In this document: in pieces, positions 8,379 through 22,404 of the stretch
Numbering within the stretch: position 1 is the stretch's first letter
Layout of the letters: each line of letters starts with the position of its first letter
Assembly (NCBI RefSeq): GCF_009900765.1
Contig: NZ_JAAABL010000001.1
Span: forward strand, 434,001 to 498,000
Length of the DNA: 64,000 nt
Direction: 5' to 3'
Source of the DNA: Rhodovarius lipocyclicus
Lineage (GTDB): Bacteria; Pseudomonadota; Alphaproteobacteria; Acetobacterales; Acetobacteraceae
Notes under the pieces: model-generated
Seen by the model: the letters and a program-made list of their open reading frames with translations, nothing else
Database searches by the model: none
What the model was told of the DNA's origin: nothing
Made by a program: the position numbers and the translations under genes

Positions 8379-8935
8379 GCTCCGGAGGCGCTTCGACATC
8401 GCAGCCCCCCAGGGCGTCTCTGTCTCAGAGATTGAGGATCGCGATCCCGCACTGCGCCGCCAGACCTGTTGAGTAAACGCCCGGTCCGCCGGCGACCTGG
8501 GCGCAGCATTCGAGCAGACCGTCAGTTTGGCTTTATGAGCGAGAATGTCGTCGTCAAGAGTGGCCAGCATCGTTAGAGTTAACGTGACATCTCGCAGGCG
8601 CATTTGCCCTTGTGCGCGGCCGCATCCGCCGTGTAGATACGACTACGCAGGGTTCCTGCAACATTAGCCCGCAGCGAAGGGCTCATGCCTGATCGGGACG
8701 CAACGCGACTGTATTGGTGCACATGGTAGCTGGCCAAGGGTACGGTTAGCGCCGTGTTTTATGAGCGAGCAGGTGCGTGCGTCCGCACGCATTTCTCCTT
8801 CTTTGCATCAAATCTTAAAATTTAGTAAATCTTAAAGATTATTTTCTTCACAATCGTTGTGCAGTGCGCCATAGTACTCTAACAAAAAATTCTCGAGCAT
8901 AACTTCATTCTCTGTAACGCAAAAAGGTGTCCAAC
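8379..8935. other. 557-base non-coding stretch before glycan island
   Basis: I find no convincing gene here. The left 370 bases have normal GC and only antisense shadow frames. A perfect inverted repeat, TGCGTGCG-TC-CGCACGCA, lies at 8774-8791. From about 8800 the sequence becomes strikingly AT-rich up to the rfbF start, unlike the rest of the window. This looks like the junction and promoter region of an acquired surface-polysaccharide locus. Confidence 0.6.
8810..8840. promoter_or_regulatory. AT-rich direct repeat and palindrome before rfbF
   Basis: AAATCTTAAA occurs twice, at 8810-8819 and 8827-8836, 17 bases apart, and the second copy overlaps the 13-base palindrome AATCTT-A-AAGATT (8828-8840). 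Spacing near two helical turns on an AT-rich background is what a dimeric regulator or nucleoid protein (IHF or H-NS-like MucR) would contact. It lies ~95 bases upstream of rfbF, so it probably governs the glycan operon. Confidence 0.4.
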
Positions 8936-9712
8936 ATGGGAATTCCTGCCGTATTGCTGGCTGGCGGTCTTGGGACGCGCCTCCGAGAAGAGACGGATGT
9001 AAAGCCCAAGCCCATGGTGGAGATTGGCGGGCATCCTATTCTATGGCATATCATGAAACAGTACGCGCATCATGGTGTCGATGAGTTTGTTATCTGTCTT
9101 GGATACAAAGGCGACTATATCAAGAACTTCTTCTTGAATTACAAATCCAGACAGAGTGGCCTCAGCATTGATCTCGGCGGAGGCCAGTACACGATGCACA
9201 ATCCTGAGGCCGGCGAGAACTGGAAGGTTCATCTGCTGGAAACCGGCGAAAACAGCATGACTGGCGGACGCATCCGCCGAGCCGCTCAGTTTCTTGGGCC
9301 GCGCCGCTTCCTGGCCACCTATGGCGACGGCGTCAGCGATATCGACATCGGTGAGCTCGTCCGCTTCCATGAGGAACAGGGCCGCACGGCGACCATCTCC
9401 GCTGTCAGGCCGCCGGCTCGTTTCGGCAGCCTGAAGATTGCCGATGGCGCCGTCGAGGCCTTCGAGGAAAAGCCGCAGGTCGGTGAGGGCTGGATCAACG
9501 GCGGCTTCATGGTGTTTGAGCCGGGCGTGGTGGATTTGATCGAAGGCGACGCCACCATCCTGGAGCGCAGCCCCCTCGAGACCCTCGCCGCCACCGGCCA
9601 GCTCAGCGCGTTCCAGCATGATGGCTTCTGGCAATGCATGGACACCATCCGCGACCTTACCTTCCTGCGTGAGCTCTGGGATTCCGGCGAGGCACCCTGG
9701 AAGCGTTGGTGA
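8936..9712 (+). CDS. rfbF: glucose-1-phosphate cytidylyltransferase
   Basis: The 258-residue nucleotidyltransferase has the N-terminal signature LLAGGLGTRLREETDVKPKP and the hexose-binding segment GWINGGFMVFEP typical of RfbF. It makes CDP-glucose from CTP and glucose-1-phosphate. I chose ATG 8936 rather than the GTG at 8927 because AAGGTG (8924-8929) is correctly spaced for it. It is the first gene of the glycan operon; rfbG follows after 22 bases and supplies the next step. Confidence 0.95.
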   Translation: MGIPAVLLAGGLGTRLREETDVKPKPMVEIGGHPILWHIMKQYAHHGVDEFVICLGYKGDYIKNFFLNYKSRQSGLSIDLGGGQYTMHNPEAGENWKVHLLETGENSMTGGRIRRAAQFLGPRRFLATYGDGVSDIDIGELVRFHEEQGRTATISAVRPPARFGSLKIADGAVEAFEEKPQVGEGWINGGFMVFEPGVVDLIEGDATILERSPLETLAATGQLSAFQHDGFWQCMDTIRDLTFLRELWDSGEAPWKRW

Positions 9713-9734
9713 TCAAGGCCAGGAGGGTCTGATC

Positions 9735-10856
9735 GTGTCGCACAATCAATTCGCTGGCGCCTATCGGGGGCGCCGGGTGCTGGTAACGGGGCATACGGGC
9801 TTCAAGGGAAGCTGGCTTTGCCTCTGGCTCGAAGCGCTGGGCGCTGAAGTCTGCGGGTATTCCTTCGACATTCCGACCAGCCCGGCGCTGTTCGACTCAG
9901 TGGGGTTGGCCAGCCGTATCCGACACGAAATCGGCGACGTGCGCGATGCCAGCCGCTTCAACGCGCTGGTTGCGGATTTCCAGCCCGATTTCGTGCTGCA
10001 CCTGGCCGCGCAGGCGATCGTCTCCTCATCCTATCGGGAACCGCTCGAGACCATTTCGAGCAACGTCATGGGCACTGCGGTCGTCCTTGACGGGTTGCGC
10101 CGACAGGCGCGCCCCTGCACCGCGCTCGTCGTCACCAGCGACAAGTGCTACGAGAATATCGAGCAGATCTGGGGCTATCGCGAGATTGACCCGATGGGCG
10201 GCAAGGACGTCTACAGCGCCTCCAAGGGCGCGGCGGAGATCGTCACGCGCTCCTTCTACAAATCCTTCTTCAGCGCACCCGGTTCGCCCGTGCGCGTCGT
10301 CTCCGCCCGTGCCGGCAATGTGATCGGGGGCGGCGACTGGGCGGCCGACCGGATCGTCGCGGACTGCATGCGCGCATGGCCCGCGGGCGGGGTGGTCCAG
10401 CTTCGCCGCCCCTCCTCCACGCGCCCCTGGCAGCACGTCCTGGAGCCACTGAGCGGCTATCTCGCCCTGACGGCCGCGGCGGCTCAGAGCCCGTCCCTGA
10501 ACGGCGAAGGCTTCAATTTTGGCCCACCCGCCGAGCGTCCGCGCACGGTGCTGGAACTGCTTGGCGATCTGGCGCGGGTGTGGGGCTTCGAGGACCACGC
10601 CGCTGCCTATGAGGCGCTGAAGGAGCCGCCCTTCGCCGAGGCAGGGTTGCTGCGCTTGAACTGCGACAAGGCGCTGCAAATGCTCCGCTGGGAACCAACG
10701 CTGCTCTACGACGAATGCGTCGACATGACCGGCACGTGGTATCGGGATGTGCTGAAGGGTGGCGCGGACCCGCACACGCTCACCCTCGCTCAAATCGACT
10801 GCTATGTGGCGCTCGCCACCGCCCGGGGCCGCCACTGGACGCAGGCCGCCGCATGA
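9735..10856 (+). CDS. rfbG: CDP-glucose 4,6-dehydratase
   Basis: This 373-residue extended SDR begins with the Rossmann motif TGHTGFKGSW at ~18-27 and carries the YSASKGAAE active-site block, both diagnostic of RfbG. It converts CDP-glucose to CDP-4-keto-6-deoxyglucose. The GTG at 9735 is preceded by a perfect AGGAGG eight bases upstream; the longer frame would start inside rfbF. The stop overlaps the next gene by ATGA. No rfbH-type 3-dehydrase follows, so the product is not obviously heading to a 3,6-dideoxyhexose. Confidence 0.95.
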   Translation: MSHNQFAGAYRGRRVLVTGHTGFKGSWLCLWLEALGAEVCGYSFDIPTSPALFDSVGLASRIRHEIGDVRDASRFNALVADFQPDFVLHLAAQAIVSSSYREPLETISSNVMGTAVVLDGLRRQARPCTALVVTSDKCYENIEQIWGYREIDPMGGKDVYSASKGAAEIVTRSFYKSFFSAPGSPVRVVSARAGNVIGGGDWAADRIVADCMRAWPAGGVVQLRRPSSTRPWQHVLEPLSGYLALTAAAAQSPSLNGEGFNFGPPAERPRTVLELLGDLARVWGFEDHAAAYEALKEPPFAEAGLLRLNCDKALQMLRWEPTLLYDECVDMTGTWYRDVLKGGADPHTLTLAQIDCYVALATARGRHWTQAAA

Positions 10857-11746
10857 CGGAGATACTGCTGACCGGTGCGACGGGCATGCTCGGCAGCAGT
10901 TTCGCCGAAGCGCTCGGGCCGCGTGCGACGCTGGTGCCAAGGACAGCGCTGGACATACGCGACCCGGCTGCGGTCATGCGGATGGTGGCGACGAGCGGGG
11001 CCTCGGTCCTGATCAATTGCGCCGCCGATGTGGATGCCGAGGCCGCGGAGGACAATCCCGACCGCGCCCTGGCTGCGAACTCCATGCTGCCTGGGCTGCT
11101 GGCCATAGCATGCCGGCGGGCGGGAATGCGCCTGGTCCATTTCTCCAGCACCGGCTGCTACGGCGCATGGAAGACAACGCCCTACAGCGAGGAGGACCCG
11201 GTCCGTCCGACCACGGTCCATCACAGCTCCAAGGTTTCCGGCGAGGCGGCGGTGCGCGAGGCGGCACCCGAGCATGTGATCCTGCGCACTGGCTGGCTGT
11301 TCGGCGGCGGCCCGGGGCACAAGAAGAACTTCGTCTGGAAGCGGCTGCTGGAGGCGGCGGCCGAGGATGAACTCGGAAGCGACACGGCCCAGTTCGGCAA
11401 TCCCACCTATGTGGGCGATGTCGTGGCGCAGACCATGGCGCTGATCGAGGCCGGCCTCTGCGGCACCTACAATTGCGTCAGTCAGGATGGCACCAGCCGC
11501 TTTGCCTATGTGGAGCGGATCGTGCGGGCCGGGGGGCTGGATTGTCGGTTGGTGCCGCGTGGGGCCTTCGCCCGCCGCGCGCCCGTCTCTCCCAATGAGA
11601 TGGCGGTGAATCAGCGGCTCGGTCTCCTCGGCCTCGACATGATGCCAGCCTGGGACAGTTCCATCGACGCCTATGTGGCCGCCCTGCGGGCGAGTACCGC
11701 ATGGGTAGAAATCGAAACGATCCAGCGGAAATGCAAAGCGCAATGA
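10853..11746 (+). CDS. RmlD-like nucleotide-sugar reductase, altered catalytic motif
   Basis: The 297-residue protein has the RmlD fold pattern: TGATGMLG at 7-14, NCAADVDAEAAEDNP, FSSTGCYG and the C-terminal NEMAVN segment. RmlD enzymes reduce the 4-keto group of dTDP-4-keto-rhamnose. Here the usual YxxxK reads H-H-S-S-K (in VHHSSKVSGE), so the catalytic tyrosine appears replaced by histidine. Being coupled to rfbG by ATGA overlaps, it plausibly acts on CDP-4-keto-6-deoxyhexose. It could also be a non-reductive binding protein or epimerase-like variant; substrate is inferred from context. Confidence 0.75.
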   Translation: MTEILLTGATGMLGSSFAEALGPRATLVPRTALDIRDPAAVMRMVATSGASVLINCAADVDAEAAEDNPDRALAANSMLPGLLAIACRRAGMRLVHFSSTGCYGAWKTTPYSEEDPVRPTTVHHSSKVSGEAAVREAAPEHVILRTGWLFGGGPGHKKNFVWKRLLEAAAEDELGSDTAQFGNPTYVGDVVAQTMALIEAGLCGTYNCVSQDGTSRFAYVERIVRAGGLDCRLVPRGAFARRAPVSPNEMAVNQRLGLLGLDMMPAWDSSIDAYVAALRASTAWVEIETIQRKCKAQ

Positions 11747-13029
11747 GCAATATCGTACTGGGCGCCGGCATCTCGGGGCTCGCGGCGGCCTATAAGGCAC
11801 GGGGCGAGGGTATCCCGGTCACCATCTACGAGGCGGCAGAGCGCGCCGGCGGGTTGCTCGACAATTTCGTCGTCGAAGGCTTCCGCTTCGACCGCGCTGT
11901 GCATCTGTCCTTTGCCACGGAGCAGGAGGTGCGCCGTGTCTTCGATAAGGCGCCGTATCATACGCACCAACCGGAATCAGTGAACTGGGATCAGACCCTG
12001 TGGCTGCGCCATCCCGTTCAGAATAACATGCACGCACTGCCGGCCGCTGAACGTGTGGAACTCATAGCCGGCCTGGTGGAAGCACCGAACGTCGAGATCA
12101 ATAACTACCGCGACTGGCTAATTCATCAGTATGGGCTCCCCATCGCTAGCCGCTGGCCTATGGTTTATACTGAAAAATATTGGACCGTTCCGGCCGAAGA
12201 GCTCAGCACTGACTGGATCGGCCAGCGGGTACGCCGCGCCGACCTGCGAGAGGTGCTGGCCGGCGCCTTCACGGACGATACGCCGAACGCCTTCTACGCG
12301 AAGGAGATGCGCTACCCCGAGGAAGGCGGCTATCGCCACTTCATCGAGCCGATGATGGAAGGGGCCGACCTGCGGACCGGGCATCGCGCGGTGCGGATCG
12401 ACGCGGATGCACGCCGCATCACCTTCGCCAATGGTGTCGAGGCCGACTACAAGGCGCTGGTCTCCACCCTCCCGCTGCCCCGGTTGATCGAGTTGATGCC
12501 GGATGCCCCCGCCGCGGTGCGGGAGGCGGCCGGGAGCCTGTTCGCCACCCAGATCGACCTGATCTCGATCGGCTTCAACCGGCCGCGCGTATCGCCCACC
12601 CTTTGGTTCTACATCTACGATCGCGAGATCCTGGCTGCCCGTGCCTATGCGCCCGACTGGAAATCGCCAGCCAATGCGCCTGAAGGGTGCAGCTCGCTCC
12701 AGTTCGAGATCTATTCCTCGGTGCGCAAGCCGCAGACCCACAGTGTCGAGGAGCTGAAGCGCAACACTGTCGAGGGGCTCAAGCGGATGGGCCTGGCCGA
12801 TGAGAGCGACATCCTCTTTGTGCACCACACCAGACTGCCCTACGGAAATGTGGTGTTCGACCTGGGCATGGAACAGCGGCGCGATCTGGTGCGCGACTGG
12901 GTGCGAGCACAGGGAATTCACTTGGCCGGGCGTTTCGGCGTCTGGGAATATCTCTGGAGCAACCAGGCGATGCTGAGCGGCCTGAACGCCGGAGAGGCCG
13001 CCTTCCTGCATGGAGAAGGAGCGCCATGA
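11743..13029 (+). CDS. FAD-dependent oxidoreductase, mutase/amine-oxidase-like
   Basis: The 428-residue flavoprotein begins with the FAD dinucleotide motif GAGISGLAAAY (7-17) and glycine-rich ERAGGLL. The middle has YTEKYWTVPAEELSTDW and HPVQNN, reminiscent of UDP-galactopyranose mutase and of protoporphyrinogen-oxidase-like flavoproteins found in polysaccharide loci. There is no clear evidence for haem synthesis here; the tight coupling with the CDP-sugar genes suggests a sugar-modifying role such as ring contraction. It starts inside the stop of the reductase (ATGA); an upstream ATG at 11701 is less likely. Confidence 0.75.
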   Translation: MSNIVLGAGISGLAAAYKARGEGIPVTIYEAAERAGGLLDNFVVEGFRFDRAVHLSFATEQEVRRVFDKAPYHTHQPESVNWDQTLWLRHPVQNNMHALPAAERVELIAGLVEAPNVEINNYRDWLIHQYGLPIASRWPMVYTEKYWTVPAEELSTDWIGQRVRRADLREVLAGAFTDDTPNAFYAKEMRYPEEGGYRHFIEPMMEGADLRTGHRAVRIDADARRITFANGVEADYKALVSTLPLPRLIELMPDAPAAVREAAGSLFATQIDLISIGFNRPRVSPTLWFYIYDREILAARAYAPDWKSPANAPEGCSSLQFEIYSSVRKPQTHSVEELKRNTVEGLKRMGLADESDILFVHHTRLPYGNVVFDLGMEQRRDLVRDWVRAQGIHLAGRFGVWEYLWSNQAMLSGLNAGEAAFLHGEGAP

Positions 13030-13076
13030 ACGGCCACTCCCCTCGATCCCCCAACATGCGGAAAAGGTTCTGACAC

Positions 13077-14627
13077 ATGGAACCGAAGGTTTCCGTCATC
13101 GTTCCAGTCTACAATGTCGAGACGTACCTGGAGAAATGCCTGGACACGATCTCCGCCCAGACCCTGCGGGACATCGAGATCATCGTCGTCAATGACGGCG
13201 CCACCGACCGCTCACGCGAGGTGGCGCTGCGCAAGGCACGGGAGGATTCCCGTATCCGATTGATCGACCAGGAGAACCAGGGTCTCGGCTTTGCCCGCAA
13301 CACCGCCCTGGACGTCGCTACCGGCAAGTATGTCGTCTTCGTCGATAGCGACGACTGGCTGGATCACGGCTGCCTGGAAGCTTTCTATGCGGAAGGCGAG
13401 CGGACCAACGCGGATATCATTATCGGCGCCTATTACGGTGCCTATTCCAATGGCCGGCGAATTCTGATCAACGATTTGGATCCGGCCCTCAAGTACATCG
13501 ACACGCCCTTTCACTGGAGGGATGCGCGCGAGGTGCTGCTTATGCCCACCCCGGTGTGGGACAAGATGTACCGGCGCGATCTGATCGAGCGGAACCACAT
13601 CCGCTTCGTGAAGGAGACTTCGGAAGACATTCCCTTTAAGTGGCAAGTGCTCCCGGCGGCGCAGCGGATTTCCGTGGTCAACGCCCCTTTCTATTATTAC
13701 CGGGTGCGCGGGAATTCGCTGACCAGCGGCCTCAAGGTCGCGGTGGACGTATTCCGTGCCCATGACCTGGCGCGGCGAAGCCTGCAGCGGGCGGGCCTCT
13801 ACGACGAGGTCTATCCCGAATGGACCGTCCGCGAGATCAACGAGATCATCTATGTGAGCGACAAAGCCAGGCCCGCCCTGCTCGCCAACAATCTCGTTTT
13901 CAGCGCCTATTATAACTTGGCGAGCAAGGTTTTCCGCGCTCTCGACCTCAGCCGGCTCGGCTCCGCCATCACTTATATCCCGCGGGAGTATCTGTTCCGC
14001 GTGCTGCATATCCGGGAGCTGGACAGCCCGGAGGCATTCCGACGCCTGCTGCAGCGCGAAGCCAACGAGTTCCAGGGCGACGAGCGCGGCCTGTCGCTGA
14101 GCCTGGGCAAGAAGCGGTTGCATGTCCGGCTGTCGCCGCAGGATTCGAGCACAGCCGAGGCAAAGGACAAGACGGGGGTCACCGCCATCCATGAGGCCGT
14201 CACGGCCGTGGATTGCGTGCCGGAGCGGTACGCGCATGCGCCGGAATGGCCCGCCGCTGCGATCACATACAACACGCCGACGCTGCTGCCGCCCATCCAT
14301 GACGATGGCACCGAACCGGCCGAGGTTCGCATGACTATGCGCGCCCCTTGGGCAGCCAAGGCGTGCACCTGCATTGCCGAAGCATTCCAACCGGAGCGCG
14401 AGGTGGCCATCAAGGCCAGAATCCGGGTGATCCGCCCTTCCGACGCCTCTATTCTGGCCGAAACGGTGGTGGAATTCCCCGTGGGCCAGCGGATTGCCCT
14501 GATGGCCGCGACCTTCCCCGAGATCAAGAAGGGCGAGGAATTCATCCTGAGCCTGAGCGCGCTTCGAGGAGCGCCCGGCCCGGCGTACTACACGGCCATG
14601 TGGTTCCACAGTTTTCATATCGAATAG
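13077..14627 (+). CDS. family 2 glycosyltransferase with C-terminal extension
   Basis: Residues 1-220 form a GT-A catalytic domain: VSVIVPVYNVETYLEKCLDT at the start, VVNDGATDRS and the metal-binding DSDDWLDHG. The family makes inverting glycosidic transfers from nucleotide sugars. The remaining ~290 residues are unlike a standard GT2 and end in a beta-rich portion with no membrane helix, perhaps a carbohydrate-binding or partner domain. The enzyme is therefore probably cytosolic. The next gene begins 10 bases downstream. Confidence 0.88.
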   Translation: MEPKVSVIVPVYNVETYLEKCLDTISAQTLRDIEIIVVNDGATDRSREVALRKAREDSRIRLIDQENQGLGFARNTALDVATGKYVVFVDSDDWLDHGCLEAFYAEGERTNADIIIGAYYGAYSNGRRILINDLDPALKYIDTPFHWRDAREVLLMPTPVWDKMYRRDLIERNHIRFVKETSEDIPFKWQVLPAAQRISVVNAPFYYYRVRGNSLTSGLKVAVDVFRAHDLARRSLQRAGLYDEVYPEWTVREINEIIYVSDKARPALLANNLVFSAYYNLASKVFRALDLSRLGSAITYIPREYLFRVLHIRELDSPEAFRRLLQREANEFQGDERGLSLSLGKKRLHVRLSPQDSSTAEAKDKTGVTAIHEAVTAVDCVPERYAHAPEWPAAAITYNTPTLLPPIHDDGTEPAEVRMTMRAPWAAKACTCIAEAFQPEREVAIKARIRVIRPSDASILAETVVEFPVGQRIALMAATFPEIKKGEEFILSLSALRGAPGPAYYTAMWFHSFHIE

Positions 14628-14637
14628 GAGCGACGCG

Positions 14638-15579
14638 ATGACGAAAGCACCAGACGATCTGAAAATCTATATCGTGAGCAAGAACTCCATCGGCTTCCCA
14701 GCGGAGCGGCATTTTCAGCCCATCCAGGGTGGACGGGCACTGACCACGACGATACTTCCCGGCACCGTGGGAGACGACAGCGGAGACAGCATATCGGCAT
14801 TCAATGAATACTATGCCGAGGTGTCTTCCATGTATTGGGTCTGGAAGAATGCTCCGAAGTCGAAATATGTCGGCTTCTTTCACTATCGCCGCTTTCTCAA
14901 CTTCGGGGCGCCGCTGTGCCCGGAGGCGCATTGGTCGGAGCGAAATTTCTACGATTTCAGCCCTGAGAGCATCGAGCGTTTCGGCTGGAGCGAGAAGGCG
15001 ATCATGGATGCGATCGGCGACGCGGATGTGGCATTGCCTTTCCGCGAGGTGATCACGCGCCCGCCCCAGTGGGACCAGCCCTGCTCCCTGTATACCCACT
15101 ATCGCAATGCGCATCTCTCGCGGGACATCAACCTTGCGATGCAAGGCATGCGCGAACTCTACCCGCATGAATACGCGGGCTACGAGGAAACGCTGTACGG
15201 GCAGATGGGCTATTTCTGTCACATGTACGTCATGCGTTGGGAAATCTTCGACGCCTATATGACGTGGCTTTTCTCGATCCTGTTCTACGTGCAGGAACGT
15301 ATCGACACGAGCGCCGAAGTCTACGGCCCCTCAAGTGGCCAGACCCGCATGCTGGGCTTCATCGCCGAGCGCATCTTCAACGTGTTCCTGGAGCAGAAGC
15401 GGCGGGAGGGGGCGACCTTCGTGGAGTTCGAACGGCTGTTCGGCAAGTTGCCTGCGGCCTCTAACGTCAAACTGCAGCAGCGCCGGAAGGAGTCGAGCCG
15501 TGAGGTGATGACGCGGTTCCAGAACGGCATCACCTTCTCCCTGCCGCGGCTGAAGATCGACCTGTACCAGCCGGACTGA
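14638..15579 (+). CDS. DUF4422 domain protein, putative glycosyltransferase
   Basis: This 313-residue protein matches the DUF4422 pattern: an N-terminal strand KIYIVSKN, the tryptophan-containing helix SSMYWVWKN and the block YVGFFHYRRFLNF. DUF4422 proteins occur in capsule and lipopolysaccharide loci and are regarded as glycosyltransferases, but the linkage formed here cannot be read from sequence. AGGAGCGACGCG precedes the ATG. It is the last gene before a strong terminator, so it likely ends the rfbF operon. Confidence 0.85.
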   Translation: MTKAPDDLKIYIVSKNSIGFPAERHFQPIQGGRALTTTILPGTVGDDSGDSISAFNEYYAEVSSMYWVWKNAPKSKYVGFFHYRRFLNFGAPLCPEAHWSERNFYDFSPESIERFGWSEKAIMDAIGDADVALPFREVITRPPQWDQPCSLYTHYRNAHLSRDINLAMQGMRELYPHEYAGYEETLYGQMGYFCHMYVMRWEIFDAYMTWLFSILFYVQERIDTSAEVYGPSSGQTRMLGFIAERIFNVFLEQKRREGATFVEFERLFGKLPAASNVKLQQRRKESSREVMTRFQNGITFSLPRLKIDLYQPD

Positions 15580-15622
15580 TCCAGATCGGACCGATCAATG
15601 GTTCAAGCTCGCACCCTCAGTG

Positions 15623-15665
15623 GAAGGGCATCGGCCGGATATTCAGTGCCGATGCCCTTCTGATT
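15623..15665 (+). terminator. rho-independent-type terminator of glycan operon
   Basis: A perfect 13-base stem, GAAGGGCATCGGC (15623-15635) and GCCGATGCCCTTC (15648-15660), encloses a 12-base loop and is followed by TGATT. It lies 44 bases after the DUF4422 stop. The T tract is weak, so termination efficiency is uncertain. Confidence 0.65.
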
Positions 15666-15797
15666 GATCTTGAGCACCCAAAAATAGATTGAATAAAATT
15701 GAGGCTGGCTTAGCCTGATGCACATGATTTCGTTCTTTCCCGATGGCCTTTATAGGGGCTCTAACTGCGAGCCAGTCCGCGCCGTCGAGGTGAGGGC

Positions 15798-16448
15798 ATG
15801 AGATTCCTGGCAGTCGGGGACAGTCATTCCTTCTTCTGGTCCGGGCGTGACGACTTCTCGCGCACGCAGAGCGACGATGACCGCTATCATGTGTTCCACT
15901 GCGGGCCCACCATTGCCTATCAGGCCCACAAGATCCGCGAGAGTCTCGACACGACGGTCGACCAGTGGCTCGACACGCACAGGTCGCTCTACTCGCACGC
16001 GATCTTCTGTTTTGGCGAGATTGATTGCCGCGCGGATTTCCTCAAGCAGGCGGAGCGCCAGCAGCGGCCGGTCGAGACGATCATCGAGGAAACGGTGGAT
16101 CGCTATCTGGCGGTGGTTCAGGGCATCAATGCCAAGTACGATATCCCTTGCCTGGTGCAGAGCCCGGCCCCCTCACCGGATGAGAACACCCATCAGGACC
16201 TCGCCTTCCCCTTCGTGGGCCCCGCGGCGGAACGGAATCGCTGCGCACTGATCTTTGACGGGTTGGTGGCGGCCAAGACGGCTGGCCATCCTTCGATCAC
16301 GCATTTCACGGTCCTGCGTGATCTGCTACATGAGAACCTACTGCCACGCGATGGCATCACCTACGACGGCATTCACCTCAAGCAGACGGTGCGGCCGATG
16401 GTAGAGGCCGCGTTGATGGAGGCGGTGCAACGGCTGGCTGCGAGCTAG
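15798..16448 (+). CDS. SGNH/GDSL-type hydrolase-like protein
   Basis: The 216-residue protein has GDSHSFF near the start (block I Ser), FGEIDCR in the middle and DGIHL near the C-terminus, the Asp-x-x-His pair typical of SGNH hydrolases. Members often remove or transfer acyl groups on surface glycans. No signal peptide is seen, so action in the cytosol or on a lipid-linked precursor is more likely than on exported polymer. GAGGTGAGGGC precedes the ATG. A preceding AT-rich spacer suggests its own promoter. Confidence 0.72.
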   Translation: MRFLAVGDSHSFFWSGRDDFSRTQSDDDRYHVFHCGPTIAYQAHKIRESLDTTVDQWLDTHRSLYSHAIFCFGEIDCRADFLKQAERQQRPVETIIEETVDRYLAVVQGINAKYDIPCLVQSPAPSPDENTHQDLAFPFVGPAAERNRCALIFDGLVAAKTAGHPSITHFTVLRDLLHENLLPRDGITYDGIHLKQTVRPMVEAALMEAVQRLAAS

Positions 16449-16514
16449 GCCCCGCCTGCCCAATTTGGTGGGTCAGGCTGCGGCCTTCTGCAGCAGCAAA
16501 GCCAAAGGTTCAGC

Positions 16515-17153
16515 ATGGTCCATTATGAACTGGGGCACTTGACCCAATCCGATGCGCAGGACGTCGTCGGTCCCATACAGGACGACGAGGCGCTGTTCCT
16601 GTTCAGCTTGGTCCGGGTCCTGCGCTGTCGCAATATCCTCGAGATTGGCGGGCTGGACGGCTATAGCGCGCGCAATTTTCTCGCCGCCATGGGTGAGGGA
16701 GGCACGCTGTTCACAGTGGACCTCAGCCCCGTGCCGCAGTTGGGCGAGAACCATGTGGTGATCGTCAAGGATTGCGCGGCAATCGAGCCGGCAGACATCC
16801 GCCACGCAACCCTGGATCTCCTCTTTTTCGATGCGCACGCCTATGATGCGCAATTGGAGTTGTTCATGCGCCTGACCAGCGCCGGCGCGGTGGATGAGCA
16901 TACCGTCCTCGCACTGCACGACACCAATCTGCATCCTCATAAGTTCGTCCCGTGGTCCTACGAAACGGAGGGCGGCTTCGTCCACCAGGCGGTGGAACGA
17001 CGGCTGGTGAATGAGTTGAAGTCTCTCGGCTATGATGCATTCTCGCTCCATCCACCAATGTCACGGCACCAGGAGAGCCTGCCCTACCGGCACGGGCTGA
17101 CGGTCATGCAGAAGTACCGGGCGCTCAGCGTGACGCCGCTCGAGCCCGCGTAA
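16515..17153 (+). CDS. class I SAM-dependent methyltransferase
   Basis: This 212-residue protein has motif I LEIGGLDGYSARNFL, a following VDLSP acidic strand end and LLFFDAHAYD, the Methyltransf_24-type arrangement. Such enzymes methylate sugars or small molecules with S-adenosylmethionine. The location at the end of the glycan island suggests O-methylation of a sugar residue. The motif has GGLDG in place of GxGxG, as is common in this subfamily. It converges on the alpha/beta hydrolase gene at 17201. Confidence 0.75.
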   Translation: MVHYELGHLTQSDAQDVVGPIQDDEALFLFSLVRVLRCRNILEIGGLDGYSARNFLAAMGEGGTLFTVDLSPVPQLGENHVVIVKDCAAIEPADIRHATLDLLFFDAHAYDAQLELFMRLTSAGAVDEHTVLALHDTNLHPHKFVPWSYETEGGFVHQAVERRLVNELKSLGYDAFSLHPPMSRHQESLPYRHGLTVMQKYRALSVTPLEPA

Positions 17154-19099: not shown

Positions 19100-21484
19100 T
19101 CAGCCGCTGGTCATCGCCAGCAGGAAGCGCCCCTGCTCGCTGTCCGGGAAGCGACGGGCGAGAGCGCCCGCCAGCACCCGGGCGGAGGCCTGGTCCCCGC
19201 GCGCCATCAGCCGCCCCAGCGCCAACCCGGCGCGGGAGAGCTCGTCCTCCCGCAGCCCCGCCGCCACCTGCTCCAGCCAGGGCGGCGCCGGCGGGGCGGC
19301 GTCCTCCTCCCGGCCGATCAGCTCGATCGCGACATGCGCCGCGGAGGGCTGGATCGTCAGCGCCTGGCGCAACAGCAGCAGGCCGGTGGCCTCGTCGCCA
19401 CGCCCCAGCACATGCCTGGCGGCGGCGACCAGCCCTTCCGTGCCGCCCGGCCCCGTCTCCGCGATGGCCCGGATGCCCGGTTCCGCCTGGCCGTGACGCG
19501 CCCAATAGCCCTCGCCCTGCTGTCTGGAGGCCGCGAAGCGGGATTCGGAGGCGAGCCGCATGGCCATGACCAGCCCGGGCGGCATCTTCGCCCGGGCGGG
19601 GCGCACGGCGCGGGTGAAGCTGTCGTACAGCACCTTGCCGGAATAGCGCCGGGCCAGATTGTCCACCGTCGCGCGATAGCAGAACAGCAGTTCCGGCAGG
19701 CATTCCAGATGGTAGCCCTCCAGCCCGGCGCGCAGCAGGAACTCCCAGTCCTCGCAGCCCACCCGGTCCTCGGTGAAGCCGCCCAGCGTGTTCCACACCT
19801 CCCGCCGGACCAGCATGTTCAGGTCGCCCAGGCAGTTCTCGAACAGCGCCAGCGACAGGCAGGGCCCGACGGGCATCCAGCCCATGGGATAGCGCGCGAC
19901 GTGGCGCGGCGGCTCGCCAGGGCCCGTGAAGGGCTGTTGCTGGCAGGTGATGATGTCCGCGCCGGAGGCCTGCGCCGCCCGCATCAGCGTCTCCACCTCA
20001 TGCGGGAAGGCGGCGTTGTCGTCGTCCATCAGCAGCACGTGGTCGCCCTTGGCATGGGCGACGGCATGGTTGCGGGCGCGGCCTGTCCACATCTCCGTCT
20101 CATTGCGCAGCAGCGTCCAGCCGCGCGCGGCGAAGACCGGGGCCAGCGCATCGAAATGGCGCTTCGCCGCCTCCGACGGGCTGGCATCGTCCACCAGCAC
20201 CATCTCCAGCCGCGTCCAGCTCTGCGCCTCGATGGAGCGGATGGCCTGGGCCAGCAGTTCGGGCCGGTTGAAGCTGGACATGCAGACGCTGACCAGCGGG
20301 GTGGAATCGACCACGGCCGGGGCGCCGGGCCCGCCCAGCGTGGCGTGCCATTCGCGCCAGCGGCGGCGGTTCTCGGCCAGGGTCACGGCGGGCCGGGCGC
20401 ACAGCCCGCCCTGGGCCAGCGCATCGGCCATCGCGGCCTCCAGCGCGGCGGGGGTGCGGGCGAAGACCACCGCTGGCTGGTCGTCCGCGTGCACGAGTTC
20501 CCGCACGCCGCCCACATCGGCGGCCAGGAATGGCTGGCCGGAGGCGATGCATTCCAGCACAGTATAGGGCGAATTCTCGATGCTGGAGGCAATGACGGCC
20601 AGGCGGCGGCCACGGGCCAGGAAGGCCTTGGCGCCATCCGTGTCCAGGTCGTTGCGCACCATCCAAGGCACGGTCCAGCCCGCCGTCGCCTCGGTGATAT
20701 AGGCCAGGGCGCTGCCGCCCGCGACCTCGCCGATCTTGCCCAGGAACACCACGCGGCTGGGCCCCGCGCCGCGCGCCAGCAGGCGCGTCATGGCATCGCA
20801 GAACAGTTCCAGGCCCTTGCGGCTTTCCAGCCGGCCGAAGAAGACGATCTCCTCCACCGGCTTGCGGGTGCCATCGCCCTCCTGGCCCTCGGGGAAGGAT
20901 TTGGGCAGCAGGTTGGGGGTGACGAAGCGCCGCCCGGGCACGGCCCAGCCGCGCGCGGCCATGTAGTCGATGAAATAGGCGCTGGGCGAATACAGGATAT
21001 CGGCGCCTTCGACCGAACGCTGCTCCAGCCAATCGGTCTCCACCTCGGCCGGCGCGCTGAGGAAGATGCCCGAATGCTCCAGGTGCCAGAAGGTCTGGCC
21101 ATGGGCCTGGCAGACCAGCGTGGTGTCCCGGAACGCCAACCCGCAGCGCTTGGCCACCGTCAGCCAGTAACCGGCGCCTCTCCAGTCATGGTAATGGATG
21201 ACATCGAAATCCCGCTGCTTCAGCCACTGATAGGCCAGATAGGCATGCAGCTTGGCCGTGCCCTCGACAAAGAGGGAGACGACCTTGATCCCCCGCTCCC
21301 GCCAATGGTCGATCCACCAGGAAACGGGCAGGTTCTCGGTATAGGCGGAAGGGGTGAGGACCGTGACATCGTGCCCGGCCTCGACCAGTTCCTCCGCCAG
21401 GGCGCGGAAGGCGGTGCCGATGCCGCCATTGGCGATGATGCCGGGGAATTCAAAGGTGTAGAGACAGATCTTCTGCCGCTTCAC
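19100..21484 (-). CDS. two-domain GT4-GT2 glycosyltransferase fusion
   Basis: The 794-residue protein joins two catalytic folds. Residues ~1-400 are GT4-like: EFPGIIANGGIGT for acceptor binding, then FFGRLESRKGLELF, and the EN-SPYTVLECIASGQPF motif with the donor-binding Glu. Residues ~415-640 are GT2: VSVCMSSFNRPELL, LVDDASPSE and LLMDDDNAAF. The final ~150 residues are helical, possibly TPR-like. I chose the GTG at 21484 because it overlaps the preceding gene stop (GTGA). It probably adds two sugars in sequence to a surface glycan or glycoprotein. Confidence 0.88.
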   Translation of the reverse strand: MKRQKICLYTFEFPGIIANGGIGTAFRALAEELVEAGHDVTVLTPSAYTENLPVSWWIDHWRERGIKVVSLFVEGTAKLHAYLAYQWLKQRDFDVIHYHDWRGAGYWLTVAKRCGLAFRDTTLVCQAHGQTFWHLEHSGIFLSAPAEVETDWLEQRSVEGADILYSPSAYFIDYMAARGWAVPGRRFVTPNLLPKSFPEGQEGDGTRKPVEEIVFFGRLESRKGLELFCDAMTRLLARGAGPSRVVFLGKIGEVAGGSALAYITEATAGWTVPWMVRNDLDTDGAKAFLARGRRLAVIASSIENSPYTVLECIASGQPFLAADVGGVRELVHADDQPAVVFARTPAALEAAMADALAQGGLCARPAVTLAENRRRWREWHATLGGPGAPAVVDSTPLVSVCMSSFNRPELLAQAIRSIEAQSWTRLEMVLVDDASPSEAAKRHFDALAPVFAARGWTLLRNETEMWTGRARNHAVAHAKGDHVLLMDDDNAAFPHEVETLMRAAQASGADIITCQQQPFTGPGEPPRHVARYPMGWMPVGPCLSLALFENCLGDLNMLVRREVWNTLGGFTEDRVGCEDWEFLLRAGLEGYHLECLPELLFCYRATVDNLARRYSGKVLYDSFTRAVRPARAKMPPGLVMAMRLASESRFAASRQQGEGYWARHGQAEPGIRAIAETGPGGTEGLVAAARHVLGRGDEATGLLLLRQALTIQPSAAHVAIELIGREEDAAPPAPPWLEQVAAGLREDELSRAGLALGRLMARGDQASARVLAGALARRFPDSEQGRFLLAMTSG

Positions 21485-22404
21485 GCCACGGCCTCCGCGG
21501 TGAAGATGGCCGAGCGCCCGCCCCAGCTCGGAGTGACGGAGATCACGCGATAGCCCGCATCCAGCAGCATGCCGCGCACCGCCTCCCGGCCCATGAACCA
21601 CCACCAGAGCGCATCCAGCCCGGCGCGGCGGAAATCCTCCCGCGTGCCGCCATGGGGCAGCAGGTCGAACTGCGCCGGGCAGGGCTGGATGGCGCGCCAG
21701 TAGTCGGCCATCAGCCGCGTCTGCTCAGGCGTCATGGCCGCCACATACCAGGCGGAGGCCGCGGTGAAGGGCGAGCCCTCCGGCAGGCGGGTCTCGTCGA
21801 TGATCAACGTGTCCAGCACCAGCAGGCGGGGGCGCAGCTCGGCCAGGCGCAGGATGCGCCGGCGCGGGTCCGCCTCATGGAACAGGGTGCCGAAATCGAC
21901 CACGATCTCGGGCGCATCCAGCCGCTGCCGGATATCGGGGTGTTCCAGGGAGGCCCTGACCCACCAGCAATCGGCCGTGTCCGTCAGGTGGTATTCGCTG
22001 GCCGGGCCGGTGTCGCGCCCGGTGCCGTGCCGGGCCAGAAAGGCCCGGACCTCGGCGCCCAGCCCCAGCGCCTCCCCCTGCTCCAGCAGGGCCTGGTCCA
22101 GCCCTTCGGGGCGGTCGGAGGCCAGGGCGCGAATGCCGGGCAATCCCAGTTCCAGCCCCAGCAGCGTGGCGTTGATGATGCGCGACACTTCCCAGCCCGA
22201 GAAGGCCACGCTGTGCCCGCCCATGATCGTGGCGAGGAATGCCAACCCCTCATCCGCCAGCAGTGGCAGGCAGCGCAGAGGTTGCGGTTCGAGGGGCGGG
22301 GGCAGGAGTTTCAGCTGTTCCGCCGGGGCCGCATGCACTACTACCGGCGGGCGGCGCCGGAGACGCTGAAGCCAGCCGTGCACACGCTCGACGATGTGAC
22401 CCAT
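21481..22404 (-). CDS. methyltransferase-like protein paired with glycosyltransferase
   Basis: The 307-residue protein lacks an obvious GxGxG SAM motif but its middle resembles late motifs of small-molecule methyltransferases: VVDFGTLFHEADPRRRI, then LLVLDTLIID, and near the end ALWWWFMGREAVRGMLLDAGYRVI. A first region with GGHSVAFSGWEVSRIINATLLG may supply an atypical cofactor site or may have lost it. I chose the ATG at 22404; the longer frame starts at 22446. It is coupled to the GT4-GT2 gene. The function is uncertain. Confidence 0.55.
   Translation of the reverse strand: MGHIVERVHGWLQRLRRRPPVVVHAAPAEQLKLLPPPLEPQPLRCLPLLADEGLAFLATIMGGHSVAFSGWEVSRIINATLLGLELGLPGIRALASDRPEGLDQALLEQGEALGLGAEVRAFLARHGTGRDTGPASEYHLTDTADCWWVRASLEHPDIRQRLDAPEIVVDFGTLFHEADPRRRILRLAELRPRLLVLDTLIIDETRLPEGSPFTAASAWYVAAMTPEQTRLMADYWRAIQPCPAQFDLLPHGGTREDFRRAGLDALWWWFMGREAVRGMLLDAGYRVISVTPSWGGRSAIFTAEAVA

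Follow-up and report, generated by a model that had tools for sequence, protein, structure and literature searches.

A 64,000-nucleotide stretch of the Rhodovarius lipocyclicus genome (assembly GCF_009900765.1, contig NZ_JAAABL010000001.1, positions 434,001 to 498,000; hereafter the window), taken from a 4.59-Mb draft that is 98.9% complete, carries a compact gene cassette that we propose supplies CDP (cytidine diphosphate)-D-fucofuranose as a donor for surface polysaccharide. We assign this reading a probability of about 0.57; the broader claim, that the product is a CDP-6-deoxyhexofuranose of some kind, is considerably safer, and we regard it as likely. In the proposed route, RfbF would convert glucose 1-phosphate to CDP-glucose, and RfbG would convert CDP-glucose to CDP-4-keto-6-deoxy-D-glucose. 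An RmlD-like short-chain dehydrogenase/reductase (SDR) would then reduce the C-4 ketone, most likely giving CDP-D-fucopyranose, with H123 probably standing in for the catalytic tyrosine. A reduced flavin adenine dinucleotide (FAD) mutase would contract the ring to CDP-D-fucofuranose through a flavin-N5 sugar adduct, as in uridine diphosphate (UDP)-galactopyranose mutase (UGM), and the downstream glycosyltransferase family 2 (GT2) and/or DUF4422 proteins would probably transfer the sugar.

To our knowledge, the first full enzymatic pathway to CDP-linked 6-deoxyhexofuranoses was described in 2025, from one Campylobacter serotype. In Campylobacter jejuni HS:41, CDP-glucose is converted in turn to CDP-4-keto-6-deoxyglucose, CDP-D-fucose, and CDP-D-fucofuranose (Simons, Narindoshvili, Raushel, Biochemistry, August 2025; PMC12369002). 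When the 3,5-epimerase is present, the reductase and mutase yield CDP-6-deoxy-L-altrofuranose; when it is absent, they yield CDP-D-fucofuranose, and the assayed reductase gives the fuco (galacto) product (PMC12369002). Both HS:41 (HS41.17 to HS41.21) and the window have one cluster with a CDP-glucose synthase, a 4,6-dehydratase, and an FAD mutase (predicted in the window), with a candidate enzyme in the window for the C-4 reductase of HS:41, and neither includes an RfbH step; HS:41 has an epimerase, whereas the window does not. By analogy with the epimerase-free HS:41 reaction, the window should make CDP-D-fucofuranose. A first-pass annotation of this DNA had suggested a CDP-linked 6-deoxy sugar, perhaps a furanose, made by a route that matched no known pathway. 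The sugar assignment is well supported by the UGM-like flavoprotein, its key residues, and the recurring rfbF-linked cassette, while the claim of no match has been overtaken by the same enzyme classes characterized in the HS:41 CDP-D-fucofuranose pathway (PMC12369002).

The flavoprotein is predicted to be a CDP-sugar mutase

RfbF and RfbG are a CDP-glucose synthase and a CDP-glucose 4,6-dehydratase; both score above the cut-offs of their NCBI equivalog models (Table 1), in line with the original assignment of CDP-4-keto-6-deoxyglucose as their joint product. The reported ATGA overlaps were verified at 10853 (rfbG/reductase) and 11743 (reductase/flavoprotein), and the GT2 and DUF4422 genes do follow the flavoprotein gene. 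The pairs rfbF-rfbG and flavoprotein-GT2 do not overlap.

By sequence, the best solved relatives of the flavoprotein are eukaryotic-type UGMs (phmmer). Its AlphaFold model has a predicted local distance difference test score (pLDDT) of 93 and a template modeling (TM) score of 0.91 to the UGM structures 4dsg and 3ukp, above protoporphyrinogen oxidases. The UGM mechanistic Arg/Tyr set (R162, Y290, R300, R397, and Y403) and the flavin-loop histidine, H54, are invariant in all 45 members of its clade. With the fold, the active-site Arg/Tyr set, and the flavin-loop histidine all kept, the protein belongs in the UGM superfamily. It nevertheless differs from the Aspergillus fumigatus and Trypanosoma cruzi enzymes in overall identity (24 to 27%), in its rfbF-linked gene neighborhood, and at the nucleotide site. 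Q93 aligns with A. fumigatus Q107, which contacts uracil (PMC3624792), but H90 and V92 replace A. fumigatus Y104 and F106, and N369 replaces T. cruzi Y395. N369 is present in 45 of 45 clade members and H90 in 43 of 45. These altered residues would be consistent with CDP as the nucleotide.

The 45 clade loci came from a scan of ~85,000 species genomes together with plasmid and whole-genome searches, and they include one pair that is the same record twice; six UGM-like loci with wider flanks served as the outgroup for rfbF linkage. An rfbF gene lies near the mutase gene in 41 of the 45 clade loci, in several phyla, and in none of the six outgroup loci. The flavoprotein is therefore very probably a CDP-sugar pyranose/furanose mutase, as predicted from its sequence and surroundings. 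In the tree, the window mutase groups with copies from Caulobacteraceae, Methylobacterium, and Sphingomonas (support 98/93 and 99/90), outside the A. fumigatus and T. cruzi UGMs, while the UGM-like proteins of other members of its own family (L011 to L014 in our locus numbering) form a separate, distant group.

Arrangements and distribution of the mutase clade

Eighteen loci, mostly alphaproteobacterial and including the window, share the order rfbF-rfbG-[cupin]-HxxxK reductase-mutase (arrangement A); hosts include Azospirillum, Rhizobium, Agrobacterium, Gluconacetobacter, Methylobacterium, Sphingomonas, and Pandoraea. The gene order seen in the window thus recurs in 17 other loci and is not a product of chance. 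In arrangement B, RfbH sits between rfbG and the mutase in L050 (Gallionella), L060, L062 (Rheinheimera), and L083 (Vibrio penaeicida), as detected with NCBIfam, and near the mutase in L067 (Helicobacter rodentium), as detected with phmmer. From the gene content of these loci, Gallionella, Rheinheimera, V. penaeicida, and H. rodentium would be expected to make CDP-3,6-dideoxyhexofuranoses, and where RfbH is present the mutase family seems to act on CDP-3,6-dideoxyhexoses. Arrangement C (L064) combines an SDR with RmlC and equals C. jejuni HS:41 in gene content, and arrangement D has rfbF and RmlC without rfbG.

Taking these loci together, we put at roughly even odds that the flavoproteins form a broad CDP-sugar pyranose mutase family, marked by HPxQ and by Asn at the position of UGM Tyr395/419, that acts on 6-deoxy- and 3,6-dideoxyhexoses across several phyla and is paired in alphaproteobacteria with a previously undescribed RmlD-type ketoreductase that lacks the tyrosine (HxxxK) and uses histidine as the catalytic acid.

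The distribution of the cassette is sporadic. A close mutase occurs in just 2 of 150 genomes of the window's family, its own genome excluded, and a close reductase occurs in 2 of 385 genomes of its class. Within the mutase clade, a further branch (L040, L071 to L080, L082, and L085) is 38 to 40% identical to the window protein and has His where UGMs have W161; these mutases accompany rfbF and genes for an SDR and an RmlC-like protein, with no rfbG, and the Paroceanicella locus adds a methyltransferase gene and DUF4910/DUF707 genes. On a Pantoea plasmid (L041:6670-10398), a protein of ~1,240 amino acids fuses a UGM-like domain to other domains, away from rfbF.

The reductase belongs to an HxxxK subfamily of RmlD-like proteins

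The window SDR has the domain family and fold of RmlD, the dTDP (thymidine diphosphate)-4-dehydrorhamnose reductase, with a model that matches RmlD 1vl0 at TM scores of 0.88 to 0.93. It nonetheless scores only 152 bits against the NCBI RmlD equivalog model, below the cut-off of 224, and carries HxxxK (H123 and K127) in place of YxxxK, so that it departs from RmlD on both counts; it also has STGCYG for STDYVF, and the window holds no RmlC partner. In alignment with solved RmlD proteins, the first histidine falls at the catalytic tyrosine, and the lysine, the glycine-rich NAD(P) motif, and the threonine of the STD motif are retained. The motif SSTG[CV]YG...P.T.HH..K is present in 18 of 18 aligned reductases.

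The position of the reductase gene, between rfbG and the mutase, is taken in other loci by a different SDR (L053), by an SDR with RmlC (L064), or by RfbH (L050, L060, L062, and L083), and an RmlD-like protein therefore fits this slot as a reductase. Together, these observations place the HxxxK enzyme, by prediction, between RfbG and the mutase at the reductase step. The SDRs in this slot of L053 (6957-7907) and L062 (7118-7993) have YxxxH for YxxxK; noncanonical SDR motifs, as read from sequence, occur in this genomic setting.

Most type A relatives have a cupin of ~139 amino acids between rfbG and the reductase that is weakly similar to FdtA/WxcM, with 3ejk as its nearest solved structure; in L053 it precedes the different SDR rather than an HxxxK reductase. 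Its place in the cassette corresponds to that of the 3,5-epimerase in HS:41 (PMC12369002), and the cupin probably sets the stereochemistry of the sugar. A 3,4-ketoisomerase role seems less likely than an epimerase role, given that one reductase subfamily would serve both the cassettes that have the cupin and those that lack it (the window, L048, and L049). Relocation of the cupin within the window's genome was considered and rejected, since a genome search for it found none. The sole RmlC detected belongs to an rml operon, and no other epimerase for the 4-keto intermediate, of either the cupin or the RmlC type, was detected. The missing cupin favors D-fucofuranose as the product.

Table 1. Cassette and neighboring features of the window, with cupin genes of related loci
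Feature	Position	Strand	Evidence or remark
rfbF, glucose-1-phosphate cytidylyltransferase (Glc-1-P + CTP -> CDP-glucose)	8936-9712	+	TIGR02623, 369.7 bits (cut-off 300)
rfbG, CDP-glucose 4,6-dehydratase (-> CDP-4-keto-6-deoxy-D-glucose), GTG start	9735-10856	+	TIGR02622, 431.4 bits (cut-off 278)
RmlD-family SDR, proposed CDP-4-keto-6-deoxyhexose C4-reductase	10853-11746	+	Pfam RmlD_sub_bind PF04321, 168 bits
UGM-like FAD protein, proposed CDP-6-deoxyhexose pyranose/furanose mutase	11743-13029	+	phmmer, T. cruzi UGM, E = 1.5e-37
GT2 glycosyltransferase with C-terminal extension	13077-14627	+	PF00535, 122 bits; cassette membership by position only
DUF4422 (GT111-type) protein, candidate furanosyltransferase	14638-15579	+	PF14393, 182.9 bits
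Low-GC segment with cassette and subsequent polysaccharide genes	8600-17153	no strand	62.3% GC versus 69-72% around it
Cupin (KGWKRH motif) of related loci	L038:7687-8106, L039:7657-8076, L043, L044, L046, L047, L052-L059, L061, L063, L101		

Weighing of alternative readings

We infer the reaction and stereochemistry of the reductase, the CDP specificity, and the acceptor, and several observations weigh against CDP-D-fucofuranose. The window reductase lacks the SDR catalytic tyrosine, hence reduction is not guaranteed, and whether C-4 reduction has a fuco or a gluco outcome cannot be read from sequence. HS41.18 is described as being annotated as a nucleotide-sugar dehydratase (PMC12369002), whereas the window enzyme is an RmlD-family HxxxK protein; HS:41 was compared by enzyme class and description rather than by sequence, so the likeness of the two reductases is one of class. 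One relative, L101, has rfbF-rfbG-cupin-HxxxK reductase, but its retrieved stretch holds no mutase; it would make a CDP-6-deoxyhexopyranose. Finally, of the cassettes examined, only those of the window and Azospirillum have a DUF4422 gene downstream of the mutase.

The nearest competitor keeps the whole pathway and changes only the C-4 configuration, so that the product would be CDP-6-deoxy-D-glucofuranose (CDP-quinovofuranose). The reductase subfamily is unlike classical RmlD, and the mutase clade also occurs in RfbH loci, whose products could have either C-4 configuration; against this, the HS:41 reductase, when assayed, gave the fuco product, and known UGM substrates are galacto-configured, and we consider the gluco outcome unlikely. 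Slightly less likely still is that the HxxxK protein performs other chemistry than C-4 ketoreduction, such as epimerization, C-3 reduction, or another SDR reaction, and that the substrate of the mutase is another CDP-hexose. The strict replacement of the catalytic tyrosine by histidine and the FdtA/3ejk-related cupin directly upstream in most relatives would suit such a role, but the protein keeps the RmlD fold, the NAD(P) motif, the active-site threonine, and the lysine, another SDR takes its slot in L053, and the cupin-free cassettes of the window, L048, and L049 lead us to expect direct action on the RfbG product. A conventional UDP-galactopyranose mutase, unrelated to the CDP sugar, is an improbable identity for the flavoprotein: UDP-galactopyranose mutases are indeed its nearest solved structures, but it falls in a supported clade apart from the A. 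fumigatus and T. cruzi enzymes, carries H90, V92, and N369 where those have other residues, and belongs to a clade whose genes adjoin rfbF in 41 of 45 loci.

Least credible of the alternatives, and very improbable, is a CDP-3,6-dideoxyhexose pathway of the classical abequose/paratose kind with RfbH encoded elsewhere, or a misplaced dTDP-rhamnose reductase. The window shares the first two steps of the Salmonella/Yersinia rfbF-rfbG-rfbH pathway and four related loci do contain RfbH, but, as the first-pass annotation had noted, rfbH does not follow rfbG here, and it was found neither in the window nor in the genome. The model NF011936 detects RfbH in L050, L060, L062, and L083. The genome's three full-length DegT-family proteins all retain the pyridoxal phosphate lysine and therefore none is RfbH (four weaker, partial PF01041 matches in other frames were left aside), so that RfbH elsewhere in the genome, which would complete a dideoxy pathway, was rejected. 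A role of the window enzyme as dTDP-rhamnose reductase was rejected as well: the rml operon, on another contig, carries the only other strong RmlD of the genome, and the window enzyme is therefore not needed for dTDP-rhamnose. CDP-D-fucofuranose remains our preferred product.

Genomic setting and candidate transferases

The low GC content around the cassette suits an acquired polysaccharide island. The GT2 protein is a possible user of the cassette product. GT111/DUF4422 includes the galactofuranosyltransferase domain of Klebsiella pneumoniae WbbM (PMC12269835); the domain was dropped as a common hallmark of such cassettes, given its presence after the mutase in just two loci. Close to the left end of the window, the gene at 984-2057 resembles, by eye, a phage-type tyrosine integrase, and an 834-amino-acid protein encoded at 19100-21604 on the minus strand fuses GT4-type and GT2-type glycosyltransferases.

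Implications

This kind of pathway has been known since August 2025. New, within the scope searched, are its alphaproteobacterial occurrence, the HxxxK RmlD-type subfamily, and a single UGM-like clade that would serve several CDP sugars. We found no literature describing any of these three in a search that left most subscription papers outside its reach, and nothing relevant on a paratofuranose mutase, on fucofuranose in the genera concerned, or on rfbF/rfbG with a furanose mutase. The survey suggests that this route or versions of it exist in plant- and soil-associated alphaproteobacteria and in some gammaproteobacteria, Campylobacterota, and Firmicutes; it also suggests a second role for the mutase, together with RfbH, in making 3,6-dideoxyhexofuranoses. 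It brings to attention an SDR subfamily in which the catalytic position carries an unusual residue, and it offers sequence signatures from which sugars of this type in surface polysaccharides may be predicted.

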